A DNA stretch of 64,000 nt from Datisca glomerata. Lineage: Eukaryota; Streptophyta; Magnoliopsida; Cucurbitales; Datiscaceae. The position numbers and the translations under genes were made by a program. Each line of letters opens with the position of its first letter. Within the stretch, counting starts at the first letter, position 1. Positions 8,611 to 52,544 of this stretch are shown here, piece by piece. Under the pieces are notes generated by a model. It searched no databases. It was not told where the DNA came from and was given only the letters and a program-made list of their open reading frames with translations. Where the stretch lies: assembly GCA_003255025.1 (NCBI GenBank), contig QANY01009128.1:1426547-1490546 (forward strand), written 5' to 3'.

Positions 8611-8614
8611 AATT

Positions 8615-21777: not shown

Positions 21778-21809
<32 letters not shown>

Positions 21810-24165: not shown

Positions 24166-25550
24166 TATACAACTATGCACAAAGCTTGCCCGTATGTGGT
24201 ATCAATTTCTGCAGGAAAGGCAAATAGAGTAAAATCCCCGTTTATAGCATCATGCCTTATGCTAAATATAAATCGAGAAAATCAATGAATCGCATTCTAG
24301 TACAAAACTGAGAACAAATCATCAGAATCACATGATAGCCTAGAGTCTAGACCAACGTGGCAAGAACTTATTGCTTATGGTATTCAAACAATCATGCACA
24401 ATATGGTCCAAGAGGCAGCTCCTATCTGGAGGCAGCAGAACCTCAGCTTAAGGTAAAAAACGAGATGTTGAACAAGTTGAATATTGGACAGTTACCCAAG
24501 TAAATCAAATTGGATGCAGGACTTATTCATTCATGAAGTAGTTGTTCCAATTAAAATTTTCTTCCTAGACCACTTCTATGCGATTAAATGGGCAAATGAA
24601 CTTATGTCCCTTTCCCAGTAATGCATGAGCCAACGCATCTACAAAGGTCCATTCATCATCACCTCAGCTGTTTCATAACTTCCCCCAAGTCATTTATTAA
24701 AAAAAGGATGATGTGATATCAAAACTGCCTCTTCCAGCTCAACTAGCCCTTTCATATTTGTGCATGTATGGTCATAAAATCTAACTCAATTTCAACTAAG
24801 TTGATTCCTCATTCATCTAATCCAAAGTTCAGTTGGTGGCTGCTTATGTGCTCTAAATTCTCAAGGAGCCTGACCATTTTTGTTCACTCTAGTTAGATAA
24901 GAATATATTTTCTTGAAGGGCTCAACTAATAAGAAATCATTCATTCGTAGGCCTAAAAAGCCAAGCATCATGCAAATCAAACTAGACCGTAAATCGCTTG
25001 GATCACTTGTAGATAGACAGCATTTCCAAAGGTGACCAAACGCTTGCGTTTAATTGTTCTGGAGATACCAAAAATGGCCACTATTTGATTGTTCTGAAGA
25101 CTAAATTCAAAACTTGTAAAATCAGAATCCAAGAGACATTACTTAATCCTTGACTTAAAGCCAAAAATCAGAAACTTAAAGCACATCACTTCAGCTGAGT
25201 TATTGTATACTTTTATCAACTAAAAGTATTCATCAATCATTGCAAAAGAACGCCCATAGAAAGGGATTGAAGAACAAGCTGGCTTTAGCATTCACATACA
25301 AAAGGCTACAAAATGCAGCAATAGACTTCTTCAAAGAACACAATTGGCGGCCGCTTCAATTTCATTGAACGCCACTGGTGAATTAAACAACTCAGGCAAA
25401 AAATCAACCCAATACCACATAATGATGGATCAATACGGGCCTTTGCAGAAAACACAGAGGTCATACAAGTAAAACTCGCCCAAATCCATATGGCATTCAG
25501 CTTCGATAAGCAAAACACCAAGAATGAGCAAAACAAACACAAAATAGTAC

Positions 25551-27587: not shown

Positions 27588-27690
27588 CGAAAAATCATTA
27601 TATTCTCCATAATATCCCATTGTTAGAAAGAAAAGTGAAAGGCTTGATCAAACGGAACTCTCGGATAAAAAATTGTGTAGATCTGAAAGA
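27588..27690 (+). repeat. inverted LTR fragment of the same copia family
   Basis: Reverse complement of this segment matches 29872-29974 of the 5' LTR. Landmarks are TTTGATCAAG, TTTCT(C/T)TCTAAC and ATATTATGGAGAATATAATG. The two LTR pieces therefore point toward each other. Confidence 0.75.
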
Positions 27691-27699
27691 CCAATATTG

Positions 27700-28330
27700 T
27701 CGGTTTGCGCTTTCTATCTTATCATGTTTCAATCTTTCCTCTTTCTGAACACAGTGTGAGATGAGCTCATTTAGAGACCAAGTCTCTTTATGACAATTAT
27801 AGCTCACCTTAAACTGGCTAAACTGTGCCGCAATGGATATCAAAACCAGATACACAAGTAAGTCCTCAGAGAGTTCAACACTTAAGGATTTCATCCCCTG
27901 AATAAATGTGAGACATCTCCATAAAGCATTCCCTGATAATACATTTATCTTTTATACCTATTTGAAATTATGTCTGGCAAGAGCGTACCATCTTCTGCCT
28001 TTTTGTTATTGACAGATATTTTTTCAATGTCTGCAAGGAAATCATTAATTGTAGTTATCTTTTCAGATATAGTATCCATGAATGCTTCTAGAATAGCCTT
28101 ATTCATGACCAGCATACACATGCGATTTGATTTCTCTCACATTTTCATCTCCCTTTTATCATCAGAGGTACTCTTATCTATAAGAGGTGTAGGAGAGTCA
28201 GTTAGTAACGTAAAATTGAGATCCATGACTCCAAGAACTATCAAGAGATTACCTTTTCAAGACTTGAAGTTTGAGCTATTTAGAACTGAAATTGAATTGA
28301 TGTTGGCCGTGATACTAGCAGGAGTAATAG
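27700..28330 (-). pseudogene. copia gag (UBN2-type) remnant
   Basis: The first part, at about 28330-27960, reads ANINSISVLNSSNFKS*KGN, LLIVLGVMDLNFTLL and SNRMCMLVMNKAILEAF. The second part, at 27700-27894, reads FKVSYNCHKETWSLNELISH and QKEERLKHDKIESA. This is the pattern of plant copia gag proteins (UBN2 family). A Trp-to-stop change and frameshifts break it, and it ends before the zinc knuckle. Confidence 0.8.
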
Positions 28331-30853: not shown

Positions 30854-31936
30854 CTATGATCTTCCTGATAACGCCCATTTCAAGTTGCTTTTCAAAAACT
30901 CCACCAAGACTTCGCGCTCCTCATTAGCTCCGGCAATCACACCATTCCTCACCAGTTGCGGAAAGAACAGCCAGACAGCAGTGACCACCACGAACCCCAC
31001 CGTCAACGGCCCCGACACTGCCCAATGCAACCGCCATTTCCCTCCAAACGCCCCTTTCAATCCAATTTCTACCACCAAACACACCCCATGAAGCACAAAG
31101 AACCACGTGACTTCCCACGTTGGAGTCGCACGTGAGATGTAGAAGTACAACAGCTCGTGCATCAGACCCGACACTAAGAAAGCCGCCAGCACCGCCGGCA
31201 CTGGAGCCCACTCACGACCCAACACGTCGTCCAAAATTGACCTAACGGGTTTGTATACTGTGTGGCGCAGAGCATTCGTTACCATGAGGTTCCACCGCCG
31301 GCCCCAAAAGTCTTGTAGAGAAGTAGAAAAGTAAGGCTCATTGGACGGCAATTCCAGCTCAATCCCTAGAACTGACCGCACCAGAACATTGCAGACACCA
31401 AAAAGAATGTCAATGAACAAATACAAACCCACACAATACAGACTTAGTATGATTTTTGGGTGCAAATATCTCTGGTAGTCAGAAAGTCCAAGCAAAACAG
31501 CATAAAGAAGGATTTTTATTGAAAATTTTGGGGGTAATTTAGAAGATTTATTTGAAATAATGGTTTTCTGATCTGTTTTGGTTGATGGGTGTTGTTTATT
31601 TTGCTTCATTTTGATGGGAAAGCAAGCAATGGAGGCGAATAGGAGGAGGGAGAGTGGTGGGTCAGATTTAAGTGGGCCCAAATCAAATGCAAAGAGGATG
31701 AGCTTGAAATTTGCAAGCCAAGTGATGAATAAGGCTGTAATGCCTGTGGGGAGGATGGTAGAGAGAGAAAGAGGGAGGAGAGTGAAGAGGAAGAAGATGG
31801 GGAGGAGAGAGAGAAGTCTAAGTTTGCCTTTGGGTAATTTTGAAGCTATGGAATAGCAATAGATTAGTGATGCTAAGACTGTTAACCATACCTTGATTAA
31901 GCTCTTGATTTCACTCATAATTTGTTTCTCTTCCAT
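30854..31936 (-). CDS. wax-synthase-like MBOAT acyltransferase, copy 1
   Basis: Single-exon gene, 360 residues from the ATG at 31936. A second ATG at 31918 (MSEIKSLIKVWL) aligns better with the neighbouring paralogue's start. It is a multi-pass membrane protein with hydrophobic segments throughout. It matches the plant wax synthase / long-chain-alcohol or sterol O-acyltransferase family. Family blocks are LANFKLILFAFDLGPL (about 75-90), NEPYFSTSLQDFWGRRWNLM (about 199-218) and VSGLMHELLYFYISR with the presumed catalytic His (about 255-268). TPTWEVTWFFVLHGVC follows. These enzymes transfer acyl groups from acyl-CoA to fatty alcohols or sterols in the ER. Substrate cannot be told from sequence. 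No stops or frameshifts, so it looks functional. Confidence 0.92.
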   Translation of the reverse strand: MEEKQIMSEIKSLIKVWLTVLASLIYCYSIASKLPKGKLRLLSLLPIFFLFTLLPLSLSTILPTGITALFITWLANFKLILFAFDLGPLKSDPPLSLLLFASIACFPIKMKQNKQHPSTKTDQKTIISNKSSKLPPKFSIKILLYAVLLGLSDYQRYLHPKIILSLYCVGLYLFIDILFGVCNVLVRSVLGIELELPSNEPYFSTSLQDFWGRRWNLMVTNALRHTVYKPVRSILDDVLGREWAPVPAVLAAFLVSGLMHELLYFYISRATPTWEVTWFFVLHGVCLVVEIGLKGAFGGKWRLHWAVSGPLTVGFVVVTAVWLFFPQLVRNGVIAGANEEREVLVEFLKSNLKWALSGRS

Positions 31937-33978
31937 TGGAATATTGATTTCTTCTTAGTTGGGCGGGTCTTAAAAAAGTGGTTTTGATTTGAGAAGCAAA
32001 GCTTTGAAAAGAAAATTAGAGTTTTGTTGTTGCCTGCGGGTAATATAGTAGGAGTCAACCCATAATTTGTCTTACTTCAATTGGGCAATTTAAAGAGGCT
32101 GCTTTTTTTACCCATTTCTAGCGAGAGACTTGTCCATACGTAACTGGCACGTATTTAATCAACTGAATTTATATATATAATTTAAATTAAGATTAACATT
32201 AAATTAAATATATCATCGTGTTTAAAAATTATTCTACAACAAAACTAGAAGTGAAATAGTACTAATTACTTTTTTATAATATTGAGATTTTATGTTATTT
32301 GAATAGTATAAAAAATAGTTTTATTTTACTAATTTATCATATTCTTAATAAATAATTTTATCATATTAAAAGATATTTTCTTATAAATTCACGTATATAA
32401 ATTTTCACGATAACATAAATATTATATAATATTTAATATATATTTTAATAGACTTTAAAAGATAAAATGAAGAATTAAAAATTTCTCACATTCAAACATA
32501 TTTTAAGATAATACATAGATATTTAGATTAATGGAAGTAACCACAGTGCGGCTGCAGTTCACGTAAGTGATTGGACTTAATTATTAGAGAGTGAGTGCAA
32601 TTGTTTATGGGACAACCATCATGAACGGTAATTATAATGTGACCGCTTCATCATATAAAATTTTGGTTTGGATGGGATTATTTTTTATAAATATTTGGCA
32701 TGCATCATTATTGTTGAGTTAGAGTCATATTAACTTTATATGACAATGTACGTGAAAATAGACAACATATTCAAATCATAATTCAAGCATATTTTTCTTA
32801 TTACAGGCGCGATGTAAAACTTTATACGTTGTCAATTTAAAGTACCAATAAAATATTATAATACTATATAACATTCTTCTTTGATGGATACATCCTTCTC
32901 AAATACTGACTAAACGAGTGTAGCAACGGACTTCAAGTGTTAAAAAATTATTCGTAAATTACATATCAAATGAGTGGTGTAATTTAACATTTTTTTGTAT
33001 AAATAGAAATACATTCAAAGATAAACCATAGTAGTCAATTCTGTTTCGGTGTCCATTTCAGTTTTCTGAAAAAATGAAACGTTTCGGATATTTCAGTGTT
33101 TCGGTGCGCTGTTTCAGAAAAAAAATTTGGTCATCTAAAATAATGTTATAAACAAAAACATCATATTAATGATATTAAAATTCAACAAAAACATCATATT
33201 AAATAATATTATCATCATGAAAAACACAAATGTTCAACATCACAACAAATTTACTTGAGTTTCATCATCATCATCCTCATTAAACTTTGTAATTCAGGAG
33301 TAACTCCACCAAACTGATCTCATCATATCTCTACAAAAGAAACATATTGAGAATAAATTCAATTAAAACAACATAAATTCATATGAGTATTTCGCTCGAA
33401 ACAGACCAAAACCTATCGAAACAAACCGATACAAACCGATACAAACTAAAATTTTGGACAAAAAATTATAACTTCTCTTTCATTTCAATTTCTTGCCAGA
33501 ACCAAAATATTTCAATCGAAATGAAATGAAACTGTCAACGATGTGATAACACTCTCAAACAAATCCTAATCGTAGTAAACAAAAAAAAACCTTTTCTCCA
33601 TTTTGAGTGGATGTGACGTGTGTTGATACACAGAAATTCATAGATAACACAACTTTCTGTTATAAATGGCTCATCCATTCCAATTTCCACTTCCATGTTT
33701 CGAGTACTCATGCGTCGGATGCCATATGGTATGGGGCTAGGGAAGAATTTCACAAGCTCTTCACATCTAAGCCTAATAAAATAACATAAAATCATATTTG
33801 CATGATTTTATTCATCCCTCTCTCCCTCCGAAATTAATATTAAATTTACGATATGAATTCTATATTAGAACTATTGAAGTTGATAGTTTATATTATGCAT
33901 GGGTCGTGCTATGGTATTATATGAGGATTTCGATATTGTACACTTGAATCATTGAATTCATCAATAAAATGGATTAAT

Positions 33979-35065: not shown

Positions 35066-36202
35066 TTACAAGAGAATGTTCTTGACGAAGTTTACCATTA
35101 TTGGGTACTCACTAATGGCCCTCTCAACAACACCATTCCTTATAAGTTGTTGCAAGAAGAGCCATTTTCCGGTCACCGCCAGAAAGCCTAGTGTCAATGG
35201 TCCTGAGATCGCCCGGCGCAAATGCCACTTATAGGGCATGACTCTCTTCACCGCCACCTCTATTGCCGTGCAAATGCCATGTAGGACGAAGAACCACGTC
35301 ACTTCCCATGTGGGACTCACACGTGCCAAGTAAAAATAAATAAGCTCATGCATTAGCCCGGAAACCAAGAAAGCCGCTATCTGTCCAAACATTACGGCCC
35401 ACCTCGGCCCAAATAGCGGGGTAGAGATACGCCGTATAGGTACGTATACGGTAGGACGTAGAATACTTGGGACCATGAGGTTCCATCTACGGCCCCAAAA
35501 GTCCTGGAGTGAGGTGGATAGGTACGGCTCATTGAACTGTGGCTCCAGCTCAAACCCAAAAATGGCTCGAACCGGAGCTGCAGAAAGGGCTAAAAGAACT
35601 TCAAGAGCCAAATACATGTGGCAAAAGTAGAGCGCTAAAACCGCATATGGGTGCAGACGGTGTCTGAAATTATAAGCAAAAATCACCATAGCCAAAATCA
35701 GAGCTTTTATAGCCAGAAAAAGTGGCTTTTGTGGTGTTTTGGGCAAATGGGTTGTTGAATTTGGAGGAGTTTTGGGGTTTTGAGAAGGGATTTGGGGGTT
35801 TTGGGTGATTTGTTGAGATGGGTGTTTGACTTTTTTGGAGTTTGAATGAGATTGGGGATTTCGAGGTGAATTTGGAGGTGGGTTTTGGTTGATTTTGATT
35901 GGGAGAGAAGCAATGACGATGAAATGGAAGAGATTTGGTTGAGGGAGTGCAAGAGGGCCAAGATCAAAGGAGAAGAGGAGGAGTTTGAAGTTGGCAAGCC
36001 AAGCTAAGAAGAAAGAGGTAGGGCCACAAAGATGAAAGGAATGAAGGTTTAAGGGGAGAATGATGAAGAGGTAGAAGATGGGGAGGAGAGAGATTAATCT
36101 TAAGATACCCTTTGGGAATCTTGATGCAATATAGTAAGAATAGCAGAGAGATGTAATGGCTATGATCCATACCTTGATGAAGCTCTCGATTTCATTATCC
36201 AT
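35066..36202 (-). CDS. wax-synthase-like MBOAT acyltransferase, copy 2
   Basis: Single-exon gene, 378 residues (MDNEIESFIKVWIIAITSLC), minus strand, 3.1 kb upstream of its paralogue. It has the same family blocks: LANFKLLLFSFDLGPLA, NEPYLSTSLQDFWGRRWNLM, and VSGLMHELIYFYLARVSPTW with the presumed catalytic His. It differs by a long hydrophilic loop at about residues 105-165. That loop is rich in Pro, Asn, Ser, Lys and Gln (NPPPNSPRNPQSHSNSKK and on), where copy 1 has a much shorter one. Predicted ER membrane enzyme forming wax or sterol esters; substrate unknown. Same strand and high similarity indicate tandem duplication. Confidence 0.92.
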   Translation of the reverse strand: MDNEIESFIKVWIIAITSLCYSYYIASRFPKGILRLISLLPIFYLFIILPLNLHSFHLCGPTSFFLAWLANFKLLLFSFDLGPLALPQPNLFHFIVIASLPIKINQNPPPNSPRNPQSHSNSKKVKHPSQQITQNPQIPSQNPKTPPNSTTHLPKTPQKPLFLAIKALILAMVIFAYNFRHRLHPYAVLALYFCHMYLALEVLLALSAAPVRAIFGFELEPQFNEPYLSTSLQDFWGRRWNLMVPSILRPTVYVPIRRISTPLFGPRWAVMFGQIAAFLVSGLMHELIYFYLARVSPTWEVTWFFVLHGICTAIEVAVKRVMPYKWHLRRAISGPLTLGFLAVTGKWLFLQQLIRNGVVERAISEYPIMVNFVKNILL

Positions 36203-37135
36203 TTGCAGTTTGACCTATCTTCCTTTATCTCTCTCTTTATGTCTCCGTCTCTGGATCGATCAACTGAGTATGTGAGATGGGAGCCAGTGACAGCTTAATA
36301 TTAATATATGAAGGGTACTTGCAACTTGAACTTACCTTATGCTGTTTAGTGGCTTATCAGACAGAAGCCAATATAAAGAAAAAATAAGAAAGGATTTTTT
36401 GCAAGATTAGACACTAGGATTTTGACTTTGCAGAAAAATAACCAAAGAATAATTTGTGTATTCCATTACTCTTCGCTAACACTCCACTTAAAATGAGTGT
36501 GTAAAGTTATAAGTTTCTCCTCTCTTTCTCTAAGCTTCTCTCCCCTCTTGGAACCAAAACCGAGCTTCTTTCTCTAAGTGTGTGAAGGCTTCTCTCTCAT
36601 AAAGGTTTCTCTGTTTTGAATCTTTACAGTTTGAGATTGCAGTTACACTTGTAAAAAAAATGTCTAAATTTTCACAGAATTGAGCTATTTTGGTTAATTA
36701 TTCTACATCGTCCAACGAATCAAAGATAAAAATCAACCAAAGTAAAGAAATGAAATCCCAATTTAGCTGATCTCTGAGGATGTTGAATAGTGTAGTTTCT
36801 GTGCATTTTGGTTTTTATGAACGCTGATATGAGGTTGAATTCTGCTTTTTGCAGGATTATATCTACACACTGTCACTGAGACAAAGCTTGCTATGGATAC
36901 TTCTAGAGGGGAAACTTTACGGATTTATGTAATCTTGAATTTTCATCTTTATATTCACTGATTTTGTATGTATTCTATGGTTGACTCTCACTAGCTGAAG
37001 TGAGTTCTTTTGCTTGTATGTATCTTATCTGAGTTTCAATCCACTCTTTTGATTTCTCTACTGATTTGGCAAAAAGTTAAACCTTTTTTTACATTTAATA
37101 ACAAATGTTGTTCTTATTATAACGTTACAGAGAGC
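36203..37135. other. intergenic stretch upstream of MBOAT copy 2
   Basis: No gene supported. The first 100 bases should hold the promoter and leader of copy 2; an AT-rich ATATTAATATT lies near 36300. A CT-rich patch occurs at 36510-36620. Confidence 0.45.
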
Positions 37136-37635
37136 AACCAACAATATGACTACTTGAAGGGTTCAAGTAGTCAAAAAATACTACTTGAACCCTTAAAGTA
37201 GTCATTTTTATCTCCTGTTAGTGAACAATCTAGACACAGAAATTGACATCATCCATACAGTAATCAATCTTGAACCTCTCATCGGTTATAATTTATTGAA
37301 TTCCAATCAACAAATATATCCAATAAAAAGACTTATTATCCAAATAAGTGTTTATAAAAATTCAGAAATCCAAACAACAAACAAAAACAGTGTTCATAGT
37401 TCTGCAAGATCTTCAAGTGGTGATGTATGACAAAAAAATTTCACAGCTAACTTGTTGCGGAATTATGGGATATGTTTCTGCCTAATAGTTGTTAAGTCCC
37501 GATCATAAACCAAGGCCTCCAAAAATTTTAAGGCAAAAAACACCACAATCTAACCTACAAAACAAAAGCAATCAGATATCCTTCTTCCATGAATTAAGGT
37601 CATGTGTACTAGAACAAAGCTCACACGTTCCCTTA

Positions 37636-38100
37636 CTAAGGAACTTTGACATGAGTTAGAGTCCACTCATCAAGTACTTTATGAACTTCTTTTCTATTTT
37701 CATAAAAGTTCATAAGTTTTAGTACACGAGGGAGTAGATGGGTGAAGGGTTGCATTAATGGATGGAGGTGGGCTCGTTGACTGGCGTTGTTCATTGAATT
37801 ATAGACTTTGACAGCTTGTTCATTGAGGTCCAACTCCACGATTATCCAATGAGATTTGTTCACGTTCATAACAAAAAAAACCTATACAATAGTATTTCAG
37901 TAAACTTTGCATAAAATAACTTTTATAGGACATAATTTGAAAAATGTGTAAGAGTACATACTCGATCACAGAAATCCCAAGTTCCTCCAAAATGTGGTCT
38001 CAGCCTGACTATATTAGTTGGCAAAAGGTCATTTTCTTCTAATGAAAATTCAGAAGGATTAGCATCAAATAGTTCACATCTACCAGACATGTTAGCCTAC
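37636..38100 (-). pseudogene. ULP1-type cysteine protease (C48) domain remnant
   Basis: An upstream piece on the minus strand (about 38095-37965) reads LPTNIVRLRPHFGGTWDFC and ends at a donor. The main piece (37869-37636) reads NVNKSHWIIVELDLNEQAVK, VYNSMNNASQ, and ENRKEVHKVLDEWTLTHVKV, then stops. The HW motif (His about 37850) and the following strand are typical of ULP/SUMO-protease-like C48 peptidases. The catalytic Asp position usually reads YDSM and here reads YNSM (about 37800). No D-C-G box with the catalytic Cys follows the stop. It is inactive. Confidence 0.75.
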
Positions 38101-38862
38101 ATTTGAGGTCAGCAAATTGATCATTATAGCATACTAAGTTCGCAATGAATTTGTACTTTGGAAAAAACCTAAAGGCTTACCTGAAAAATAACGTCAAAAA
38201 TATTGATTCGTAAATATGGGTGGAAGTCGTGAAGATCCCTCCGAATTTTGAGCTAGTGCTCATCAATATTCTGCCAACAAAATAAGGAAAAAATATGTTA
38301 TATGTTGCAGAACAGAGAACATGATACTACTTGAAAGGTACAAGTAGTTTTGTAACTGCTTGAAGAGTTTAAGTGGTCAAAAAGACTACTTGAACCCTTC
38401 AAGTAGTCTCATATTCACTGGATAACTTAGTGCAGGACTAAAAAATATCTACTTGAAGGGTTCAAGTAGTCAAAAGACACTACTTGAAACTGTCAAGTAG
38501 TCATAAAACACTACTGCAAAACATAACAAAAATCTAATTGGTTGAATTCTAAACTAATTAAATACGAACCTCTGATTCCAACCATTCAACTAGATCCAAG
38601 AGCTTGGAGAAGAACTTCTTACAAACAGTTGAAATACTAAGTTGGATGGTAGTGCTGCAAAACAAAACATATATGTACAATCATTTAACCTTCTTTTAAA
38701 TTAAAAAAAACATATATGTACATAAGTTCAAGAATTTACCTGTCATCAACGGAGTCATACCACTGGTCAAATTTTTTCTCACCTTCTTCCATCAGTTCAT
38801 CAAAGGGTTTGAATGGTAGTGATGGGGCATCTTTCTCAAATTGTTCTATCCGCGTTGTTATC

Positions 38863-39690
38863 TTACTGGATCTGTCCAAGGAGACTTGACATAATGGAAG
38901 GAAAGTGTTTTCTCTTTCCTAACTCCTCAAGCAACTCTACAACGTCGGATTCTAAAAGAGACTTGTCTACTTCTGAGTCAGCCTTCTGATAAGGTATCTC
39001 TACCACCTTTGTCTTAGCCTTCTCAGTGGGTAGATTTGGCTCTTTCTTAGTAATGTGATGTTCCTCTTCATTAGTTCTCTTCCAATGATTCAATATCGTA
39101 CTGTTGAACAATTTGAGAAATGATGTTGGATGCATCATCATCAATATCATCCAACTTCCCCAATGGAGAACCATTAATTTCATTTCCCCTATTAGTACCA
39201 TCCATTTTTTCTCCTTCACTACCATGTAACTTTTCTTCACGTCCAACATCCACCTTATCAAGATTGTTGTAGTTTGGTCAAAAGAATGTACATAAAAATC
39301 TTGCCCAATTGGGGATCTCACTTGCTGATCAATAAGGACTTGTAGCTGGCCTACAATGCTTCTTAATTCTTGCTTAATATCAGCAACTTCTTTTTTCAGC
39401 TTTGTTGAGTCACCCTTAAGTTTCTTAACATCAGAAGTCATGATGTCCAACTTCTTTTTGGTCTCATGCATGAAAGCATGAACATCCTCCCCATTATCGC
39501 AATAGCTCCAAAAGCAGTATACTCTAACAGTGGAACTTCTTCAACCACAGTTCCACTTTCAAGCAAAGGACTCGACAAGTCCATCTCTTCCTCAGCAACA
39601 ACCTTAACTTCCTCAACAACAACCCCAACTTTATGAACATCTGTAAAATTCTTCCAGAATGGCTGTTGCTCTTCTTGCAGTTGGTTTCAA
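38863..39690 (-). pseudogene. coiled-coil middle region of the DUF1985/ULP1 gene
   Basis: The longest open block (39471-38863) begins MHETKKKLDIMTSDVKKLKG, with regular Lys/Leu heptad-like spacing to about residue 50. It continues in Glu/Lys-rich sequence ending PSIMSSLLGQ. A frame change near 39270 separates two readable halves: the alternative frame 39071-39253 (GREEKLHGSEGEKMDGTNRG) looks more like the native acidic linker. The adjoining piece at 39524-39709 is less clear. It lies between the DUF1985-like and ULP1-like parts, as in transposon-associated ULP-like genes of plants. Confidence 0.5.
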
Positions 39691-40274
39691 AGTAAAAAAA
39701 AACCTTCAACTACAAATCAACACAAAAAAACATGTCATTGTTTGTTGAAAGATGTGAAAAAATTATTATTTGAAGGGTTCAAGTAGTCAGATATAACTAC
39801 TTGAACCCTTCAAGTAGTTACATGGTTTGACTTCCGGAGTCAAAATCACTACTTGAAGGGTTCAAGTAGTCAGATACAACTACTTGAACCCTTCAAGTAG
39901 TTACATGTTTTGACTTCCAAAGTCAAAATTATTACTTGAACTCTTCAACTAGTTAGATACAACTACTTGAACCTTTCATTGAAGGGTTCAAGTAATCCGA
40001 TATAACTACTTGAACCCTTCAAGTAGTTACATGTTTTGACTTTCAGAATCAAAATCACTACTTGAAGGGTTCAAGTAGTCAGATAAAACTACTTGAACCC
40101 TTCAAATAGTTACATGTTTTAACTTCCAGAGTCAAAATCACTACTTGAAGGGTTCAAGTAGCTACATGTTTTGACTTCCAGAGTCAAAATTACTACTTTA
40201 AGAGTTCAATAGTCATATACAATTACTTGACTTGCCACTACAAAAATGATAAAATAAGAAGTCAAGTGTTCTTA

Positions 40275-41252
40275 CCAATTTACGAGCGAAAATATCCTTG
40301 TGCACTTGTTCATGCGACACAATGGTGTTAGTCATCCAGTTAAGTAATCTTGGAAAATGATTAGCAACCTTTTCCGCTTACAGGTTTCCAATTGTAGGTA
40401 TGACCTCATATGCTCAAACCTATATAAATCAATAATAATTATTCTTCACTAATTCTAGAAGCATAAAAAGGAAGAAGAGGGGAATGAAGATACCTGAAAA
40501 GTATATGGAAAACCCCCCAATGCGTATGTATACTCAGCAATTTTTTTCTCAACCGTCTTCTTTTTCTTTTTCTGACTTCCACCATCTTCCTTATCATTAG
40601 CTTCTTTGGGAATGGAGTTCTTCAAATCTCATATGGTCCTCCCAAAGCAAACCTCCCCCCATGAGTAGCTATTGAAATCATCCAGATTATGAACTAGCAT
40701 CACCCGCCTATTATCAATCTTGTTCCCTCTCTCCTTCCCAAGCAAAACATGCTTCAGTAAGTAAAGTAGCCCCAAATTCACATCATCACCCTCCTCAACA
40801 CCTTCGATGTCAATAAAAACTTCCTCCAACCACTTGTTGTTGATGTTGTCATCACGGTTGAAGTACTAATCCCTAATCCTATTACGGCCAGTCTTGTCAT
40901 ATGTCCCAAGATCAGGAGGAGTGCCGCAGTGAAGGCCAGTTATCAAAGCAAATTCTCTCTTGGAGAACCTTATCGCTTTTCCAGCTTTGAGAAAATACAT
41001 CTCATCTTTAACAGTAAAATGCTTTGGCGTAGCTTCTCTGAGAAGCATGTGATGACATATGATTCAAGAAAACTGGATACTCCGTATGTCCAACAAATGA
41101 CTGAAACATGTCTTCCTAAACAGAATCTTCTGACATTCAGTGAGCTTCTCATTCAGTTTCGTAATAGCATTTAGGCTGGAGAGGCAGTTCACTTTCTCAG
41201 AGATATATTCATCATCATTGAAGACTAGAGTCAGCTGAATTTCTGGAGCCAT
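40275..41252 (-). pseudogene. DUF1985-like region of a transposon-associated ULP gene
   Basis: One frame can be followed from an ATG at 41252 (MAPEIQLTLVFNDDEYISEK) through FRKTCFSHLLDIRSIQFS and then FLKAGKAIRFSKREFALITG. It continues through DDVNLGLLYLLKHVLLGKER to LGGFPYTFQ at 40497. After an intron-like gap it resumes at 40429 (AYEVIPTIG, HFPRLLNWMTNTIV) and ends at 40277. The RFSKREFALITGL block is the hallmark of DUF1985. Stops interrupt the same frame at about 41064 (TGA), 40866 (TAG) and 40629 (TGA), with two more in the second part (V*AYE and NL*AEK). Such genes are carried by Mutator-like transposons in plants (Kaonashi type), but I found no terminal inverted repeats here. Confidence 0.7.
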
Positions 41253-41892
41253 ATCCGTTGAAGGATGCAAATATAAAGTTACTATCATCATTTATTTATA
41301 CACATAAAAGTACTTGATTGCTTACTGAAGGGTTAGGGTAGTTATATAAAACTACTTGAACCCTTCAAGTAGTGAACCAGTGACTACTTAAAGGATTCGA
41401 GTAGGCAGATACAATTACTTGAACCCTTCAAGTAGTTACTTGTTCTGATTTTCAAAAACAAATCACTACTTGAATGGTTCAAGTAATCAGATACATCTAC
41501 TTGAACCTTTCAAGTAGTTACTATTTTGAATTCCAGTATCAAAATCACTACTTGAAGGGTTCGAGTAGTCAGATACACTACTTGAACCTTCAAGTAGTGA
41601 TTTGTTTTGACTTTCAGATTCAAAATCACTACTTGAAGGGTCCAAGTAGTAAGATGCACTACTTGAACCCTTCAAGTAGTAACTTGTTTTGACTTCCAGA
41701 GTCAAAATCACTACTTGAAGGACTCAAGTAGTCAGATACAATACGTAAACCATTCAAGTAGTCATTTATTTTCACTTTCAGAATAAAAAAGACTACTTGA
41801 AGTTTTCAAATAGTGAGATGTTGTTTTCAAATTGACTACTTGAATGGTTCAAGTAGTTCTAAACAGCTACTTGAACCCTTCAAGTAGCCAAT

Positions 41893-43080
41893 ATATTCAA
41901 ATTGTTATCACATTCATCTATCAAAAACATCAACCAATCTAGAGATGCAGAAGGTCATAATCATCAAGAGAGACAATCTAAACCCTAGAAAAAATCTAGT
42001 AAGAAGAATAATGGGTACATGAGTTTCAAATTGACTCTTCAAGTCCTTTTATGCGTAAAAAAAAGTAATGGGTACTTGAGTTTGTCCGCAGGTGGGTGTC
42101 GTGCCTGACTATCGTGTCGGAGTGCTCTGGAAACAAAAGAAGACGACATGCAGGGACTATCTTGCCAAAGAAGAAGCAGAAGAGACGCGAAAAGAGAGAG
42201 CATAGAAGAGAATGGAGACGAAGAGGAAGAAGAGAGCAAATGAGTGTAAAGAGAAGAAAGAGAAACATAAGAGATGTGAAGAAGCAAGCAACTGCATTTT
42301 CCTACTTGATGGGTAACTGCTGGGAAGTGTGTGAACAGTGAAATTCGTTTGATTTAGTGGGTCATGGATATGAATTTCTGAGTTTTGAAAAGGAGTATAA
42401 AAATCCTAACAAAAAAGGAAAAAGATATATTTATTTAAATAACCCTTTTTAAAATGTAATTTTTATTCTCGAGTTAGTATGTGATGTTTCAAAAGAAACC
42501 AACAATTTGTGGCTGGTCAATATAGATAGATTTCAATGTCTTTAAAATGTAGTTTTTATTTCGAGTTAGTATGTAATGTTTCAAAACAAATGAACAATAC
42601 AAATTGTTTAAAAACCTAACTAGTTGTTACAAAGAGAGGGTCATATTCCAACATATGGTTGTTTATTAAGATTGAACAATATTCACCCCTAACCATGGAG
42701 GAGGAGCTCATCGCTATCATTACGTGAATCAATTATGTCTAATCATGTATAAAAAATTTTACACGATGCTCGTCACCTAATTAGGAGACAAATGTTATTC
42801 TATTAAGATCTCTTAATTTCCTGTTTTTAAAGAATGAGTAATGTTATTTAACTTAGCTTGTACTGCATCACAAATCTATAGTGTTTTGAATCATCAAAAT
42901 GCATCAATCCAATTTTGACACGTAAACTTACGATACCACAAGTTAGGCAAAATTGAATTTTTCTTTTAAAATTATTGACTTGTTAAGAAAATCTTACCTA
43001 AACGTGTATATTTAAGTGAAACTAAGTTTATAACTTTCATTAACAATACTCCTTCACATACTTAATTATGCAGAATGGTT
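41893..43080. other. intergenic stretch left of EDM2
   Basis: A purine-rich block (42120-42290) gives a Lys/Arg-rich frame that is not credible as a gene. A segment beginning near 42452 is repeated about 88 bp later (GAGTTAGTATGT(G/A)ATGTTTC at about 42470 and 42560). Otherwise plain AT-rich DNA. Confidence 0.5.
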
Positions 43081-43291: not shown

Positions 43292-46200
43292 CTACTCATT
43301 GAGCCAACCTGCTGAGTTCTGGTGCAAAAAGGGGTGATGAGGACCCGAAGCGAAACCCGGATGAACACCATGATATACAGGTGGCGGTGTTCTATGATCA
43401 GAGATCCCATTTCTAACCATTTGTGGTGCAGAGCCAAGACCTCCAATCCTTGTGTGGTTCAACTCATCCAATCGAGGTGCATAGCGCTGCATTGCTGACG
43501 TGGCCATCCGGTATGATGATTCAGCTGGCGATCCTCTACCCCCATAAGCTGATGATAATGATCCCATCTGGTTATTATATCCGGGATTGGGATCATGAGC
43601 CGCTGGATAACTACCTCTCAAAGAATCAAGACCTTGAAGCCCATATAAACGAATTTGAGACCGGATTTGAGAGTTCCTCATGTACCTCTCTTCTAGGTCA
43701 CTGATGTAGGGTCTATGACCTGAGCCATCTTCACTTCCTCCTCTCAAGTGTTGTCCCACAAGAGGCTCCTCAAAATTTCTAATCCCAACACCAGAATCAG
43801 GACCTTCTGCACTGCCTGCCCATCCATAGGTCCCAGATGAAGGGTCATTGTCATTCATGATGTACTTTCTGACAATATCATCGGTTATGCGGTCAATGGG
43901 TTCGCAATAAGCGTTTTCAAGTTCTGTGTGTGAGCCAGACACTTCAGGATTAGAATGCAGAGGCATCTCAGCGGATTTGGAAGGAAGGCGGTCTATAGAG
44001 TACCTGCTAGCAGTCGCCTTTGGAGAAGAGTGCATTCTTTCACGAGTATTGGCTACAGAAGGCCTCAAAATATCCTGTTTAACCTCTTCCGATAACTTAT
44101 CCGTTCTTCTTGCATGCTTTCTTTGACCACGTTGCCTCTTCCTTGATGTCTCATCTGAATGGGTTTTTCCATACTGATTATTTTCATAGCTTTCCCTATC
44201 GCAATCAATCTGAGCAGAGCTTCTTTTGCGAACTTCAGTATCACTTCTCAAATCTTCAGGCCTATCTGTCTGTAATGGAAGATCGTCAATTTCCATGGGT
44301 ATGACATTACCATTGTCAAGCTCTTTCACTGGACTTTCAAGGAGTGAAGCTTCCGAGGATTTTCTTGCCAAGTCTGTCTCTTCTTTTTCCCTGAGGTGAC
44401 CATTCTTTCCAGCAATAGTATTGTGTTTAGCAGTCCAATCACGACGGCTCCAAAGATAGAGAAGAGGTGGCCTAACATTCCACTGGTCCATTTGTTTGTC
44501 ATTCACGTTGACCGATCCAGGAAGATAAAAAGACTGAAATTATAGACAAAAACATTAACATTCTCTAAAAATAAAATTTCAAACGTCCAAATGAAAGGAA
44601 AACACATCTTTCCCCTTACCTTTCCTGACAAAAAATGATCATCTTCCCAAACCAGGTCATAAGCTGGCCTTTTCTTATCTAATCTGTCACAGACAACAAA
44701 TTAAGTTATGTAACATAATTGACAATATCATACAGTATTTCTCCCAATCTCACATTAAAAATGATGTATCCATGTATGCGCAACTAACATTTCTCTTTTA
44801 TTTTTCTCAATTTTTATTTAGTGTGTCGGGGGGGGGGGGGGGGGGGGNGGGGGGGCATTACCTCTCCGTCTCAGGCGGAACAATGAGAATAAGAAGCTTT
44901 GGCTTGAACTCGAGAGCCTTGTCAATGAACTTGTTTGCCAGAGCAGCTTTAACTCCAAAGGGAGGATTTAACCCCATTATCTGTTCAAGAAAAAGCGACA
45001 AAATGTAACGTCTGATAATAGGCTAGTGGACCATCAAATGTATTAATCCAATATGTACAGAAGCCAACAGTTTTTACCAATTGGGATCCTGTTGACAACT
45101 CCTTTGGTTGGACAGTCATCCAATCTCTCTTCTCAAAACAAAAGTCATTCTGCCAAGAGAAAATGTGCTCAACCTTCCAACTACAAAAGTTCAAACTCAC
45201 ACATGCAACCCCACACTTCTTATCTCAAAACAGTTATAAAACTCAATCAAGTAAAAGAAGAAATATTAAAGATCAAGAATCAAGAATAAACACCAAGAAC
45301 CTCGTGCTTACTCTGTATAGACCAACCAGCCACGAAAAAGCAAAAAACAATTAACACAAGATGGAAGCATGAACATCACGGGTTTCTAAGGTATATTTGA
45401 TAGCAAACATGTTCACGGGGATCTAAGGCTAAAACTAATGATTTAGTTACAATTAGAAGTGTGTTTTCTATCTCCATGGGTAAATCCTTAACTCGTCAAA
45501 ATGGAATTATTGAAAATCATTAATACAAATGTTCTTAACTCGGGACTCAATTTTGAATAATAACAACGCATCCTTCAGAACATCTGGAAAAACATCTCCA
45601 AGTAAGATATCCGAGAAGGATGCAATCATAATATATCCTCTGTGCGTATTCCTAAAAAACATGTTTATGTGTGTTAACGGGTTTCTGGCAGAAAGATTTG
45701 GATAATCTTAGGAGTTTTAGATGAGTTGAAGGTGGACAAGATTTGGATTTTCATAGTTGAAGGTGGACGAGATTTGGATTTTCCATCAAAGGGCTAAAAT
45801 TTCCACGGGCCTGGAGCTTCATCAAATTGTGGGTACCTCAAAGAAAAGTACCCAAGTTGTAATTCAGTAAGGTCATAGATTGTAATCAGTGTTGTTCTTC
45901 CATATAATTGTTGAATATCATAGAATCTTACAGTAAGTTTATCAAGCTAGTCTTCTGGTCCTATCATATAACTGAATCAAGCAAGCTATTTAAGATTATA
46001 GGATAGTAAATGACCACCTTTGGTGGAATAAAGTCATAGTTCTTATACGAACACTTTTTCCCAGTCTCTTCAAGTTTTTTCTTCATTAGGACACTGAAAT
46101 CATTAGCACCACAGCAAAAGTCCACTATCTGTTCACAGGAATAATTTGCAGTCAGAAGGTCAACATTGACACAAAATTTATCCAGAAACGGTAAGCAAAA

Positions 46201-49200
46201 TATGGACCAAGGTGATGTATACCTGTATGTCATATGAAATAAGACTGTAAACAAATGGTGATAGCAGAAACTCAAATGCAATGTGGACAATAAGTGCAAC
46301 AGATAAACAAGAAACCATAAAAGAAAAATATACAGATTGAAAAATCTCCTGTAAGTTATTATTTAAAGGATGGTCCATCAGTTTATTCTCTCACCAAATC
46401 CTAAATTCCTTGCATACTATTTGTTGTTGATGGGAAGGTAAGACGTAACATTATATGAAGACAAGCTCGACAACAGCATGATCAAAACATATTCTATCTA
46501 TACTGACTGAGACAACTAACTTTCAATTATTCACGTATCGTTTTCAAGTACATACCTAACGAAGGACAACTTACAAATCGAGTAAGTAGAGCCTTACCGT
46601 ATCACCATTTTGCACATACCAATGAAGCTTATCAACAATCTGTTAATTAGGAATAAGAGTTTTAGCATTTCTTCCACACTTGACAGAAATATGACAAGGC
46701 AACTTCAAAGAAGAAAGAGCAAGGGCAAATAACTAATCTTGTATATACACCGTCACATGAACTAAACCATAATTCAAATTGCACAAAGTGGTGAGCAAAC
46801 TGAAGATTACCTCTTGAAGTTTATCCTCTTTTGTAAAATGGCGGCCAAAGGATGTGTAGCGCATACCATGAAGAAAAGGTGACAGGTATACTTTTAGTTT
46901 GTTCTGCAACAAAGATAACTAATAACCAACTAAAGAAAGATAAAAAAGATTCTAAAACAAAAGTTGAAGCATCAATATAAATGGAAAAAGGATGATGTAC
47001 AGGCCAATGAATATTAACCACAAAAAGAAAAGAAAAGGAGCGTAATTAGAGCTTGGTATAAATAAGAGCAATGCAGGAAATGAAGTAATATTTTCCTCAA
47101 TTCTTACCNTTTCCCCCCCCCCCCCCCAAAAAAAAAAAATATATTATCTGATATTTGCAAAAAAGACAGAACATTACAAAAAGCTGGCATGATCAATTTG
47201 CAATCCAAAATATCCTAAGCCAATAGCGAGGCAGCTCATAAAAATGCATGTCCGTCAATTGAATAGTTAGAACAATCCATCCAACAGCTACACAGGTTAA
47301 GTTGCTCTTCCAAACCATTCCAAAGCTACATCAAGGTGATGCATAGAAATGCATCTAGTTGCACATCGAAATCAGCAAGCATTGGAATATGAAACACCAT
47401 TCACACCAAATTCATTCCCTATATTGTTATTTGATTGGTAACTAAAATCCTCTATATATACCATCAGTCAACGAGTTAATCTTTTATCACCATCATCATA
47501 ACTAATGACATAAAACACACTAAGGCAATTCTCACAAGATTGCTCTTGCTGACCGCTTAAGCGAGTTGCTTGAAAGCTGTACATCAGGAGCCTCTCACAT
47601 GGCAAAGAAAAATGGCGCATGAGTCTTGGTGTATGTGTATCAATGCATGCTGGATTATGAAGCATGATTAGTGTTCCTAAAAAAAATATTACTTGATGGC
47701 CATCAACAGTCAAAACCCCAATAAGTTCTCTGAGCAGCATCATCGAAATGTTTATTAAAAACTAAATTGAATTGAGAAATCAAGGCCCTAAGTCCTTTAA
47801 GACTCTCAAATTACAGACACCCCAATGATCCCACCACCAAACAGTGAAAACTGGATAAGACACTACTAAAATCTGGAACTCCAAATAACGCAAACTTACT
47901 AATATAAAAAGTGTTTTAAGAGGCCTAGATATAAAAAGTGTTCTTGCATTTATAATATAAAATTCGATCACTTCCAAAAAAGAGTATCCCGTAAAAAAAG
48001 GTTCAGAGAAAATAAGTACAGAAGCAGAAACAAAATAAATATAAAATGCAAGAACTGTCTTCTCCGGCACTAGGTTATGTCCGACACTAGGTTATGTCCG
48101 ACACTAGGTTAAGATGACTGAAGAAATGAGGACCTAGAACACTGGAATTTGTAGGATAGTAGGATAAGAAGAAGCAACCACCTTCCACTTAAATATTTGG
48201 GTAAGCACCTCAGATCCACAGACCGCTTCTGCATCCTCAATGCTACATCCTTCTTCTAGCTTCTGTAACGCTGTTCGAACAGCCTGAGAAAAAATGAGAT
48301 GGTATCATAATTAAGACTTTTCTTCAATAGCCAAAAGATAGTTTAAGAAACACAAAACTTAATGACCGACACATGATATAGACGTGCAATCATATCGGGA
48401 GATACATAATAAATCTGATAAAACTGTGTACCTCAACTGAGCCCTCCAACTTTCCCATGGTAATGGTCTTCTCCACAAAATTTTTTAAAGAATAAGAGTG
48501 AGTAGAAGGAACTTCATGCTTTTTTTTAATATCATTCAGAGTAATTGAAGATGCAGCATCTTTCACCAAACCCAATAACCTACATTGGTAGAAAAATATA
48601 TAAAGAAACAATCAATTTTTCCTTTCCCTTAACAAGAATGAACATAAAAAATCAACATCCATCCATGGGGTCACCTTCTCTCTGTATCTTCATCTAACGG
48701 AGGAAGCTCGCCGTTCAACGTCTTTTTCAGAGGTTTAATCGTTGTAGACTTACTAAGTTCACCTTCGGGTGAATCCTGCTTCCCAGGTTTGACTTGCTCA
48801 GACTCCTTGGTCATCCAGGTATACAGCCTGTCTCCCAGGGACGATTTGTTCTCCTTGACCAAGGATTTATCCACCTCCACTGAAATGGATTTCTTATTAC
48901 CATGTATGGATTTTTTCGGTACACTGCCTGCTTTCAATTTCCTGGAGGCATCTGAACCCTCCTGAAGTTTGCTATGACCCACTTTTACTGCAGAACGTGC
49001 CTTTTCATTTGATTTATGTACTTTTGCAGCAATTTTACTTTCGATGGAATCTTCACGCACTAAATTAGCCTTTTTTGACAAATTCTTTGCTCTATTTCCT
49101 AGAAAATCTGAAGACATTCTTTTCGTATCATCAAAAGAAGCTTTCTTTCTATCAACCATAATATCCTTTTCTTGAAAGGGATATTTGATGTGGTCTCTAA

Positions 49201-52200
49201 CTGGAGTTCCAAGTTCTACATCAATCTCATGGTTTCTGGTTAAACGAGATGGCCAAGATCAGCAGGTTACTATTGACAACATGAAGACCAAACCAGCCAA
49301 GTAAAAACTTACAAGCAGTATATCAAGATGCGATTGGGTAGTAGATCCTTCCAAGCTCTGGCAATTACTCCTTCACCCGCTTCGTCTTGCATGACAATCT
49401 CCCTGTTAAAGCAGCTCATACCTCAGGTAACTACTTAACATAAATGATCAGCTACATACTACATACTGGAGATAGAAAGTAGAAGAAAAGAGCTACATAC
49501 TTTGGTAAGCATTTTCTGTGGTATGACTTGGGACAACGCCTGCACACGGCAAACTGCAATTCAAGAACTTTCTTATTTTCCCCTTGCTTACAAACACAAC
49601 ACTTGTGAATGGGACATGTGAAAGACTCCCCATCAACAATCTTCTTCTCAAGCTCTTCCGCAGCAACTTCATTCTCCAGGTGAAGCAATTTTGTGACACA
49701 ATGAGGATGGTAGAAACGGCCACAGGTCGCATTAACACAGGGAAAGACCTAAAAGCATTTGGAAGGATCACATTTAGGTATGCCCAATACCCCAAATCAA
49801 AAGGATACCAATACGAACAATTCCTTGAAATCATTCAAGCTGGACATGACTTTATTCAAATAAACGTTGGCATACAACCACTAAAGGAAGTTTGGATGCA
49901 CTTATATAAGCCAAACTTTTAGTACAAATACAGCAAAGAATACCCAGAGTGGAGCTTAATTAACCAACAAGCATCACCGTGAGGGAAATGAATCAATACT
50001 TCGGAAAAACTACTGAGTACTTACACAGAGTAAAGCTTGAAAGCCAGAAAACATCAAAAATGCATCACAAGCAATGACCCAGACTAGATAGTACATATCG
50101 TGCGAACTTTTCAACCTACAAGATATAACAACCTAAAATTAACAATGCAAGGTTATTTTAAAAAACCTTAAAGGCATAGATGTATAGCCAAAATATTAAG
50201 CCTCAACGAAATTAATCGGATAAAAGACACTAAATAATAATGTTTGACTAAAATAAGTAAAGAATTACCAATATATGTTTTTTATAAGAAATATAAACAG
50301 TAAATCCATCAAATCTTGCGTTTATCTAAAAGAAAAGAAAAAACGATGAAATAATGCAATAGAACTGCAATTCTTGGATCAAAAAGTAGACTTTTCAACA
50401 AAACTTAAATTAGTAGATGATCAATTTCCATAAAATCTGCAGTAACCTTTACCGCCAACTTATAATTTATGTGGAATGAGTAGTGAGCTTTTAAAAAATT
50501 CTACTACAATGGTCAGTAGATCAGACAGTAGTCTCAAGTAAATACAATGATCAATAGATCAGATAGTAGACTCAAGAAAATACCTCAGCACCGGAAGATT
50601 TATCAGAGGAGCCCAATTCCCCGCAAGCAAAGCATTGATGTTGTTTAAACTGACAATTCTTGCAGAAAAAATCCTTCTCCTCCATTGCCTGCCATAATAA
50701 GAAAGGGTTTCTGTGCTAAGTAGCCGAAAATAGAACAAGGTACATAAGCAATGACAAAATAAAATGATAGACATCGTACCTTTACTTCATCATTAGAAAA
50801 TCCAAGAGACGAACATAAGGATTCTTCACCGTCCTTTTCAGTTGGATGGAACGACCTCAGGCACCTCCCTTCACAGCTACATCAAATCAAATAACAACTT
50901 TATGCAAGTTTATATAAATTAATCAGAGTAATTATGATCAAGTATTTCTTTCTTAAAAAATAAATTGAAACATTTAAAGATATCCTCGAGAAGTTAACAC
51001 AAAAAAGATTGTCAAGATTGACAGGAGGAGACATGAACAAAATATGTGAGATATGCCCTACGCATTATAACTATATAGCATTATAGAAAATCTGCATATA
51101 TGAGATATGCCCTATTATGGAAAAAGCAATCTGTCACGTAATGAAAACTGAATCAATAAAACCAACTTGGATAACATTTCTTCTGATGGTAAAAATTAAA
51201 TAAGCAGCAAGATAAGCATAAATTATAATGGAGACAATGGCCTAAGCATTATACCATATAGCAAACCACAAGTCATGACTAAAACCCCATGCTTGAGACT
51301 CGTAAATCATTCCAGTAGCCAACAAAACAAAAAGAACATACCAGAACAGCTCCCCACCATTATCACAAATTGCACAAACAAAATCAAATACATCCCCATC
51401 GTTCCCATCCTCTTCGGCATCATCCATATCTTCATCTGAATCATCAACTATGAAGCTAGACTTTTTGGCAGCTTGCAGATCCTAAATAAGCCGATTAGTG
51501 TACTTACTACTTCAACACTAGAGGTACAAAATATTTTCAAGAAAATGTGGCAACAGAAGTGCAAACACTATTAAAGCAGGATTATTTACCTCATCAGCTG
51601 GCTTCCTCCTGCCAGGCTTCTGTTCGAGCAATGTGTGCAAAAACTGTTAAAACCACAGCTCATTACCGAGAGGAAGTCATAAACTGATGGCATATTTCAA
51701 CGACTCGTATAATAGAGCTAAAGTCTAGAGCAGAATCTTACTCAAGTGGATAATACTTCTTTTATAAGAACTCAAGATAATATTACAAAGGCGTGGATAT
51801 TTCTGTATCAAGCATTATTTTTCTAGATATAAAAGGTGATATTAAAAATAATAATAATAATAATACATCAGAAAGTTTGAAAATGCCCATTGCTTCGAAA
51901 CAGTATAAAAAGAAAACAGCTCAATACCTTGGACGTCGCCAAGACATCATCCCTCTTAATGGCTTCACGAATTAAAGGCAAGTGATCAACTAGATCATTC
52001 TGCGAGGGTCTGACCTCATACAAGCTGCAAAGACAGTCGAATTTGACAATTAACACAAATGATAGTTATTTAAGGAATGCGAAAAGTTCTTTACTAAAAA
52101 AGACTTTTCAACCTGAAAAGAAGAATAACTTACCTGAAGACTTTAGACAAGTGATCCCATAAAGGTTTGCCAACTGTTTCAGGATTTTTCTTCAAAAAAT

Positions 52201-52543
52201 TAAGGCAATGTACGGTAATTAATATAGTCCTAATGGTGCCCTCAAAGATTTTTCTAGGCTTCTGCAGCTTTATCCAAATGTTTTCCTTGGAGAGAACGAA
52301 TATCCCAGGCATCACATTGGAAAGATCAAATCTCCACGCTATGACATGCTTAAATACTTTCTGGAGACCACTGTCAGTAGTTCCACGCAGAAATAGCTGC
52401 TCTTGCCTGCCATCTGGCCTCTGCCCCTCACTCCATATAATTGGCAATTCAGAAAACGAAACAGGTTCGTCCTTGTCGTCCGCAAAATCGTAATTCGAAA
52501 CGGACAGTTGCAGAACCTCAGTTTCATCATCAGAAGAAGCCAT
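43292..52543 (-). CDS. EDM2: EDM2-like PHD-finger regulator
   Basis: Eighteen exons (minus order): 52543-52134, 52024-51928, 51643-51590, 51481-51342, 50876-50780, 50688-50584, 49748-49501, 49402-49313, 49235-48675, 48579-48432, 48283-48182, 46903-46811, 46639-46598, 46128-46018, 45149-45078, 44980-44862, 44683-44620, 44533-43292. They sum to 3,795 bp, 1,264 residues in one open frame, close to Arabidopsis EDM2 (about 1,300). The start is MASSDDETEVLQLS. Composite PHD fingers span about 222-382 (CAICDNGGEL, CFACGELGSS, CCVCKQGE, CRRCPKSYHRKC). A basic linker follows (about 415-600). A methyltransferase-like module (about 685-850) has DFCCGANDFS and NPPFG. The tail is Gly/Pro/Tyr-rich and ends AGWLNE. 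In Arabidopsis EDM2 binds H3K9me2-marked chromatin and controls polyadenylation of RPP7 and other genes with intronic heterochromatin. No defects seen. Confidence 0.95.
44827..44856 (+). repeat. poly-G run with an undetermined base, EDM2 intron
   Basis: About 28 G residues interrupted by N at 44848, six bases from the end of EDM2 exon 16. Length is probably unreliable. Confidence 0.85.
47109..47139 (+). repeat. N, poly-C and poly-A run in an EDM2 intron
   Basis: N at 47109, then TTT, about 15 C and about 12 A. It lies in the 1.3-kb intron between exons 11 and 12. Confidence 0.85.
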
Positions 52544-52544
52544 T

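Follow-up and report, generated by a model that had tools for sequence, protein, structure and literature searches.

The 64,000-nt stretch of the Datisca glomerata genome analyzed here (assembly GCA_003255025.1, contig QANY01009128.1, positions 1,426,547 to 1,490,546 of the forward strand), hereafter called the window, contains a broken minus-strand gene with DUF1985 and Ulp1 protease domains, which is surrounded and interrupted by arrays of a short palindrome. Gene and arrays are referred to together as the element, and their positions are listed in Table 1. The palindromic unit is 23 bp long, consisting of two arms separated by three nucleotides (ACTACTTGAA-NNN-TTCAAGTAGT). As assessed at an edit distance of 4 or less, there are 32 copies in four clusters spread over 37149-41888, in good agreement with a sequence-only reading of the same DNA, which had put the number at about 30 and recognized four clusters within 4.7 kb. 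When only ungapped matches to ACTACTTGAANNNTTCAAGTAGT with at most 3 mismatches are considered, 29 are found, all of them in 37149-41888, and none in any of 100 dinucleotide-preserving shuffles. As for the perfect half-site ACTACTTGAA, all of its 38 occurrences on the two strands of the 64 kb fall within the element. Two further decayed units, at 39962 and 41321, lie at edit distance 6. In the rest of the window, outside the element, there is no match to the unit under distance 6, which is the chance level; the indel-tolerant null, computed from only three shuffles, gives 0.67 matches at distance 5 and 4.3 at distance 6 per 64 kb. A search for the exact unit pattern in viral and prokaryote contig collections returned no match, which is uninformative on plant copies. 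In a literature search with the motif strings, the longest string was absent among the matches listed, whose titles suggest chance matches.

The layout of the arrays differs between clusters. Clusters 3 and 4, which are the largest, are built of a tandem repeat unit of 82-83 bp consisting of a GGG-centered palindrome, a 7-8 bp spacer (CAGATACA or close), a CCC-centered palindrome, a short spacer, and a second palindrome, TTTTGACTtccagAGTCAAAA. The GGG unit is the reverse complement of the CCC unit and each pair is therefore a single long inverted repeat. Neighboring units alternate between the two centers in 24 of 28 pairs (1/1, 3/4, 8/10, and 12/13 in clusters 1 to 4; labels were read by hand and the two distance-6 units were left out), so that the alternation previously noticed in the larger clusters holds for most pairs. 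In the large clusters this alternation results from the amplification of a single 83-bp inverted dimer, which means that the pairs cannot be counted independently. The second palindrome, with arms TTTTGACT/AGTCAAAA, is interposed in both large clusters, mostly at 81-83 bp, much as the earlier period of near 83 bp had it. With up to 3 mismatches, it has 12 matches in the window, nine of which are in the two large clusters, with steps of 83, 126, 83, and 52 bp in cluster 3 and of 81, 82, and 82 bp in cluster 4. The other three matches have 3 mismatches each, and 1.48 matches are expected by chance in the window. Clusters 1 and 2 contain the 23-bp unit but lack the 83-bp frame and have no match to the second palindrome.

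Palindromic units in four separate clusters could in principle be the nested insertions of a small mobile element of the hairpin type that repeatedly jumped into non-coding sequence, and the sequence-only reading had indeed offered the scar of a hairpin-ended mobile repeat as one meaning of the arrays. The regular 31/52-bp spacing and the one common 83-bp unit point instead to tandem growth, and there is no other copy in the 64 kb. We therefore regard such an origin as extremely improbable.

The gene that hosts the arrays was reconstructed as eight exons, with splice sites read by hand from GT/AG signals and not taken from a prediction program. On this inferred splice model, the Ulp1 domain is joined to DUF1985 in the same gene, and 32 of 32 palindromic units are non-coding, being distributed upstream of the gene, in intron 2, in intron 4, and downstream. 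Cluster 4 is on the promoter side, upstream of the inferred start codon. The earlier observation that clusters fall between exon-like blocks, never inside them, is thus borne out, whereas its description of the repeat as intron-borne is too narrow, since two clusters are outside the gene. Exon 1, with its stops read as residues, matches DUF1985 in Pfam (E = 1.6e-24). Exon 7 matches PF02902 above Pfam's cut-off (E = 5.6e-6, profile positions 86-148, at 37636-37881), and exon 8 has a collinear match to the same profile that is below the cut-off (E = 0.022, positions 174-208). The DCGVF motif in exon 8 is presumably the one expected around the catalytic cysteine of Ulp1. When the gene pieces were compared with 177,635 distinct PDB sequences at E values up to 10, the sole match of exon 1 was VANC21 (9lnj/9lnk; E = 1e-7, query residues 27-207 aligned to chain residues 54-234), and exon 7 had no significant match, with the yeast ULP1 protease at E = 0.67. 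An AlphaFold model of exon 1, made from two sequences, was unusable, with a mean predicted local distance difference test score of 35.

Searches for relatives of the encoded protein returned cucumber proteins only. With the whole read-through protein, only five near-identical cucumber B3-DUF1985 entries were found among 7994 candidates scored, a search that we think was crowded by coiled-coil words. With the DUF1985 part alone, 0 of 374 candidates matched, and no close DUF1985-Ulp1 relative came from these protein searches. One Cucumis sativus protein, P0001, has a B3 DNA-binding domain joined to DUF1985 and also matches VANC21 in PDB; it may be a VANC-like protein that was domesticated and gained a new DNA-binding part.

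Arrays of this kind have been described for the VANC proteins of Arabidopsis VANDAL elements, which bind short motifs in their own element and induce the loss of its DNA methylation (PMC5735166; PMC10398659; these and the other papers are cited here for the portions of their text that were available). VANC target motifs are tandem repeats that accumulated in introns, intergenic regions, and terminal non-coding regions, and the coding-region probes tested were devoid of VANC motif (PMC5735166). Motifs and proteins change together between families, and motifs differ among related elements (PMC5735166; PMC10398659). VANC proteins carry DUF1985 and DUF287 (PMC5735166, legend of Fig. 5), and, according to a 2026 review, some Vandals have VANC genes with an Ulp1 domain (KIU), whose own non-coding motifs are recognized, the domain being conserved in eudicots (PMC13317346). 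These target arrays were overlooked when it was previously stated that no described repeat family has the present layout (PMC5735166; PMC10398659; PMC13317346).

Of the known systems closest to the element, three are of the VANC type, and the fourth is TnpA with the subterminal repeats of maize En/Spm, discussed further below. VANC21/VANDAL21 (Hiun) of Arabidopsis thaliana has in common with it a DUF1985 protein and a short tandem motif in non-coding regions, not in exons (PMC5735166; 9lnj/9lnk). However, the VANDAL21 motif, YAGTATTAY, is 9 bp long and is not described as palindromic in the available text of that paper, whereas the present one is a 23-bp palindrome. In addition, VANDAL21 has VANA (the transposase) and VANB, whereas here there is an Ulp1 domain and a transposase was not recognized. 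The KIU VANC genes of eudicot VANDALs share with the present gene an Ulp1 domain in a VANC-type gene (PMC13317346, citing Hoen 2006 and Sasaki 2022). VANC6/VANDAL6 also has its own motif, AGTTGTCC/AGTTGTAC, in tandem repeats in non-coding regions, although the motif sequence is different (PMC5735166). A core chosen post hoc, AGTWKT, covers the VANC21 and VANC6 motifs and the present half-site, with a probability of 0.02 for a random 10-mer.

Because gene and arrays occur in combination, we interpret the locus as a VANC-type system. The region is probably a decayed relic of a VANDAL-type element, i.e. a Mutator-like element (MULE) without terminal inverted repeats (TIR), of the KIU sort, and the arrays are the likely target sites of its own VANC-like protein. 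We infer a VANDAL rather than another MULE backbone. The sequence-only reading was right that the arrays belong to a DUF1985/ULP1 relic and avoid its exons, but the meanings that it offered for them are unsupported as a primary explanation. The 23-bp palindromic VANC-like motif may be new within the literature that was searched, a claim that could fall with the motif list of Sasaki 2022, which is outside that scope.

The arms of the palindromes vary less than the other parts of the repeat. Among the 29 ungapped units, 28 of 580 arm positions are off the consensus, compared with 13 of 87 center positions (p = 0.001; each center was compared with GGG or CCC, whichever was closer). Over eight copies of the 83-bp register, taken from clusters 3 and 4, the arms differ at 15 of 320 positions and all else at 47 of 344. 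By class, the differences outside the arms are 6/48 in centers, 7/64 in inner spacers, and 11/48 in outer spacers, and in the second palindrome of the same eight copies they are 14/128 in arms and 6/40 in the loop. Arms compared with these single classes give p values from 0.07 (inner spacer) to 1e-4 (outer spacer). When four paired units of clusters 1 and 2 are compared with the cluster 3-4 consensus, leaving out three other cluster 2 units because their spacer lengths differ, the arms are changed at 3 of 80 positions, compared with 9 of 16 positions in their two 8-bp spacers (p = 1.5e-6). We do not attribute the decay of the arms to deamination alone, as only 10 of the 28 changes are C>T or G>A.

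The spacing of the units also shows regularity. Distances between unit centers (27 spacings, 31 units) are 29-32, 43, 51-52, 63, and 74 bp. Those of approximately 31, 43, 52, and 63 bp are near 3, 4, 5, and 6 turns of 10.5 bp (R = 0.91 over all 27 spacings), and in a Monte Carlo test 0.09% of random sets deviate as little in sum from multiples of 10.5 bp as these four classes do (p about 0.001). Helical periodicity of motifs was reportedly found by Sasaki in 2022 to be one determinant of VANC specificity. We propose that the lower variation of the arms and the near-whole-turn spacing are signs of sequence-specific binding, as judged from the DNA sequence.

A neutral minisatellite would account for part of these features. 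On this account, an 83-bp tandem repeat grew by slippage within a single non-coding stretch and was spread within the element by recombination or conversion, its palindromic form being accidental. Tandem duplication has clearly acted, as clusters 3 and 4 have one 82-83 bp unit and its spacers in common, and in these clusters the inner spacers are almost as conserved as the arms (2 differences in 40 positions of five 8-bp spacers, in addition to the 7/64 above). However, the arms of the 23-bp unit are preserved in clusters 1 and 2, where the 83-bp context is not, there are two different palindromes, both symmetric, and spacings outside the 83-bp unit (43 and 63 bp) are also near whole turns. 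Furthermore, slippage alone does not bring a unit to four separate places. A purely neutral origin thus appears improbable.

A role at the RNA level was also considered, in which array transcripts from either strand would fold and give rise to small RNAs or regulate splicing. Both large clusters are indeed predicted to fold very stably as minus-strand transcripts (z = -22.6 and -19.3), as anticipated by the sequence-only reading, and tandem repeats have been discussed as sources of small interfering RNA (siRNA) and as targets of RNA-directed DNA methylation (RdDM), which in Arabidopsis overlap with VANC targets (PMC10398659). However, palindromes fold automatically, hence the extreme values are no further proof. 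Base pairs of the arms are changed on both sides in only 1 of 27 changed pairs, with 0.66 expected by arithmetic, i.e. compensatory change is not above chance. That arm changes are uncompensated argues against selection on the hairpin and for two half-sites. In addition, some clusters are outside the transcribed gene, the arm sequence and not just its pairing is kept, and no Rfam family matches 36500-42500 at gathering scores. A structured intron satellite, as suggested earlier, is not supported as the primary explanation, given the uncompensated changes and the arms that keep their sequence across clusters with differing spacers. Small RNAs, which were also suggested, are unsupported as the primary explanation and possible as a secondary consequence, being more likely the host's answer than the purpose of the arrays. 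A primary function in RNA is therefore very unlikely.

The methylation history of the locus was approached through CpG content. The ratio of observed to expected CpG is lowest in the arrays (0.14), followed by the remaining non-coding parts of the gene (0.18) and the exons (0.38), compared with 0.63 in the flanks and 0.58 in the window. As the 23-bp unit itself has no CpG, the figure for the arrays is not evidence on its own. Low CpG is consistent with a dead copy that was methylated for a long time.

Element ends and a transposase were searched for. The Pfam scan covered 28 open reading frames (ORF) of the window, namely 20 of the 81 ORF of at least 60 amino acids in 28-50 kb and 8 elsewhere, and exons 2, 4, 5, 6, and 8 were also scanned for domains. 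These results bear on a further explanation, that the arrays are subterminal repeats bound by a transposase, comparable to those bound by TnpA in En/Spm (CACTA) elements. The gene lies between clusters 1 and 4, grapevine CACTA families are marked with an ULP1-like region in a figure legend (PMC2528002), and TnpA of maize En/Spm is, like VANC, an element-encoded protein linked to demethylation, which makes the mechanism close to the one we favor (PMC10398659). On the other hand, two clusters are deep within the gene, in introns 2 and 4, no CACTA-type transposase domain is found among the 28 ORF scanned, no TIR was found apart from the array units, and the encoded protein is related to VANC21. 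In En/Spm, which belongs to the CACTA superfamily, TnpA binds repeated short sites that are confined to subterminal regions, unlike the present arrays. Subterminal transposase sites are thus as unlikely as a primary RNA function.

Several observations weigh against a VANC-type VANDAL relic. No MULE transposase (vanA) was found among the 28 ORF scanned with Pfam, and, since a non-autonomous or truncated copy would have no transposase, VANDAL membership is only proposed. No convincing TIR was found apart from the array units themselves, and the element ends were not located. An exact 10-bp direct repeat, AACCAACAAT, at 37136-37145 (beside cluster 1) and 42497-42506, is a weak candidate for the target-site duplication of about 9 bp that characterizes VANDAL-type MULE, as approximately 0.13 such pairs are expected by chance within 14 positions of the array (an estimate based on 8 pairs of identical 10-mers across 850 left positions); by eye, the right copy falls in a local duplication. 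On the protein side, P0001 matches VANC21 better than exon 1 does (E = 6e-13), and the VANC21 match therefore shows the domain family and not the whole system. DUF287 was not found in the gene pieces scanned with Pfam. VANC domains are said to be gained and lost (Sasaki, again from 2022), for which reason we treat DUF287 as non-defining for a VANC-type system. The VANC21 and VANC6 motifs are not found in the element, which is expected if motifs diverge, or if the systems are unrelated, and the string "palindrom" is absent from the text of PMC5735166 and PMC10398659. Exon avoidance would also be seen with any repeat excluded from exons by selection, and the good preservation of the inner spacers of clusters 3 and 4 counts in the same direction. 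The helical optimum is broad (R stays at 0.8 or more for periods between 10.0 and 11.5 bp and peaks near 10.7 bp), and the four-class test merges 29-32 and 51-52 bp and omits the 74-bp spacing, which spans a broken unit and would fit 7 turns. Finally, tandem copies are not independent and all p values are therefore too small.

A direct duplication of approximately 70 bp (42440-42510 and 42536-42610) was seen by eye close to where the right end of the element may lie.

On the interpretation that we favor, the arrays would act as follows. A VANC-like protein made from this or a sister copy would bind each 23-bp site symmetrically as two copies, one on each of the two ACTACTTGAA half-sites. Numerous sites along the same side of the double helix, located in the 5' and 3' regions and in two introns, would allow the protein to cover the whole element, and it would remove DNA methylation from that element only, after which the demethylated element could be transcribed and mobile. 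Binding, dimerization, and demethylation are what we infer for this VANC-like protein.

The second palindrome may add another layer. TTGACT, which we take to be the W-box hexamer, is present in both of its consensus arms. There are 15 TTGACY in the 1.25 kb of arrays versus 70 in the other 62.75 kb, and no enrichment across the whole window (85 observed versus 84 expected). A coupling of the second palindrome to WRKY factors is a guess. A more ambitious proposal is that the locus represents a new recognition mode, combining a 23-bp palindromic operator-like site, a dimeric DUF1985-Ulp1 protein, an alternating whole-turn lattice, and paired W-boxes that couple anti-silencing to host stress (WRKY) input; this we consider rather unlikely.

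Table 1. Coordinates in the window of the palindrome arrays and of the exons of the DUF1985-Ulp1 gene
Feature	Position	Strand	Description
Array cluster 1	37149-37202		Two units (GGG, CCC); downstream of gene
Array cluster 2	38326-38501		Five units in intron 4; spacers differ from clusters 3 and 4
Array cluster 3	39765-40213		Eleven units and one broken half; 83-bp higher-order repeat; intron 2
Array cluster 4	41321-41888		Fourteen units (41351-41888) and one decayed; ~82-bp higher-order repeat
Second palindrome, TTTTGACTNNNNNAGTCAAAA	39825-40189		Five copies: 39825, 39908, 40034, 40117, 40169
Second palindrome	41524-41789		Four copies, mostly more decayed: 41524, 41605, 41687, 41769
Exon 1	40494-41252	-	DUF1985; in-frame stops at 41066, 40868, 40631; VANC21 homology
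Exon 2	40276-40419	-	Two in-frame stops; inferred splice sites
Exon 3	38740-39673	-	Low-complexity/coiled-coil region; several frameshifts
Exon 4	38570-38654	-	Inferred splice sites
Exon 5	38181-38270	-	One in-frame stop; inferred splice sites
Exon 6	37962-38096	-	Inferred splice sites
Exon 7	37637-37881 (low end approximate)	-	Ulp1 protease (Peptidase_C48) segment, HW motif
Exon 8	37397-37556 (approximate)	-	End of Ulp1 domain, DCGVF motif; one frameshift

The neighborhood of the element contains several other genes and gene remains. On the minus strand, ORF in 43292-52582 encode PHD_NSD zinc fingers (49452-49748) and a DNMT1-RFD domain (52133-52582), and presumably form one EDM2-type gene. 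EDM2 regulates the silencing of intronic transposons, and an EDM2-like gene is a curious neighbor for an anti-silencing relic. On the other side, two uninterrupted ORF for MBOAT wax-synthase-like proteins are in tandem on the minus strand (30854-31954 and 35066-36214). The second of these proteins shows at most 65% identity among the best 120 of 1841 matches (Prunus), and no Brassicaceae is named among the matches listed. Farther away are exons of a DNA topoisomerase I gene (19200-24201, minus strand) and retrotransposon remains at 7795-8995, 27601-27951 (minus), and 60938-61912 (plus), namely a Copia-type integrase/pol, a weak gag fragment, and a reverse transcriptase-RNase H region.

In one survey, the VANDAL clade held Brassicaceae elements (PMC6446971). 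If our interpretation is correct, the Datisca locus would be a test case for anti-silencing apparently outside Brassicaceae, with the candidate protein family, the candidate site, and its spacing all at one locus. The symmetric 23-bp site would then hint that some VANC-like proteins act as dimers, and the motif might serve in the targeted removal of DNA methylation.

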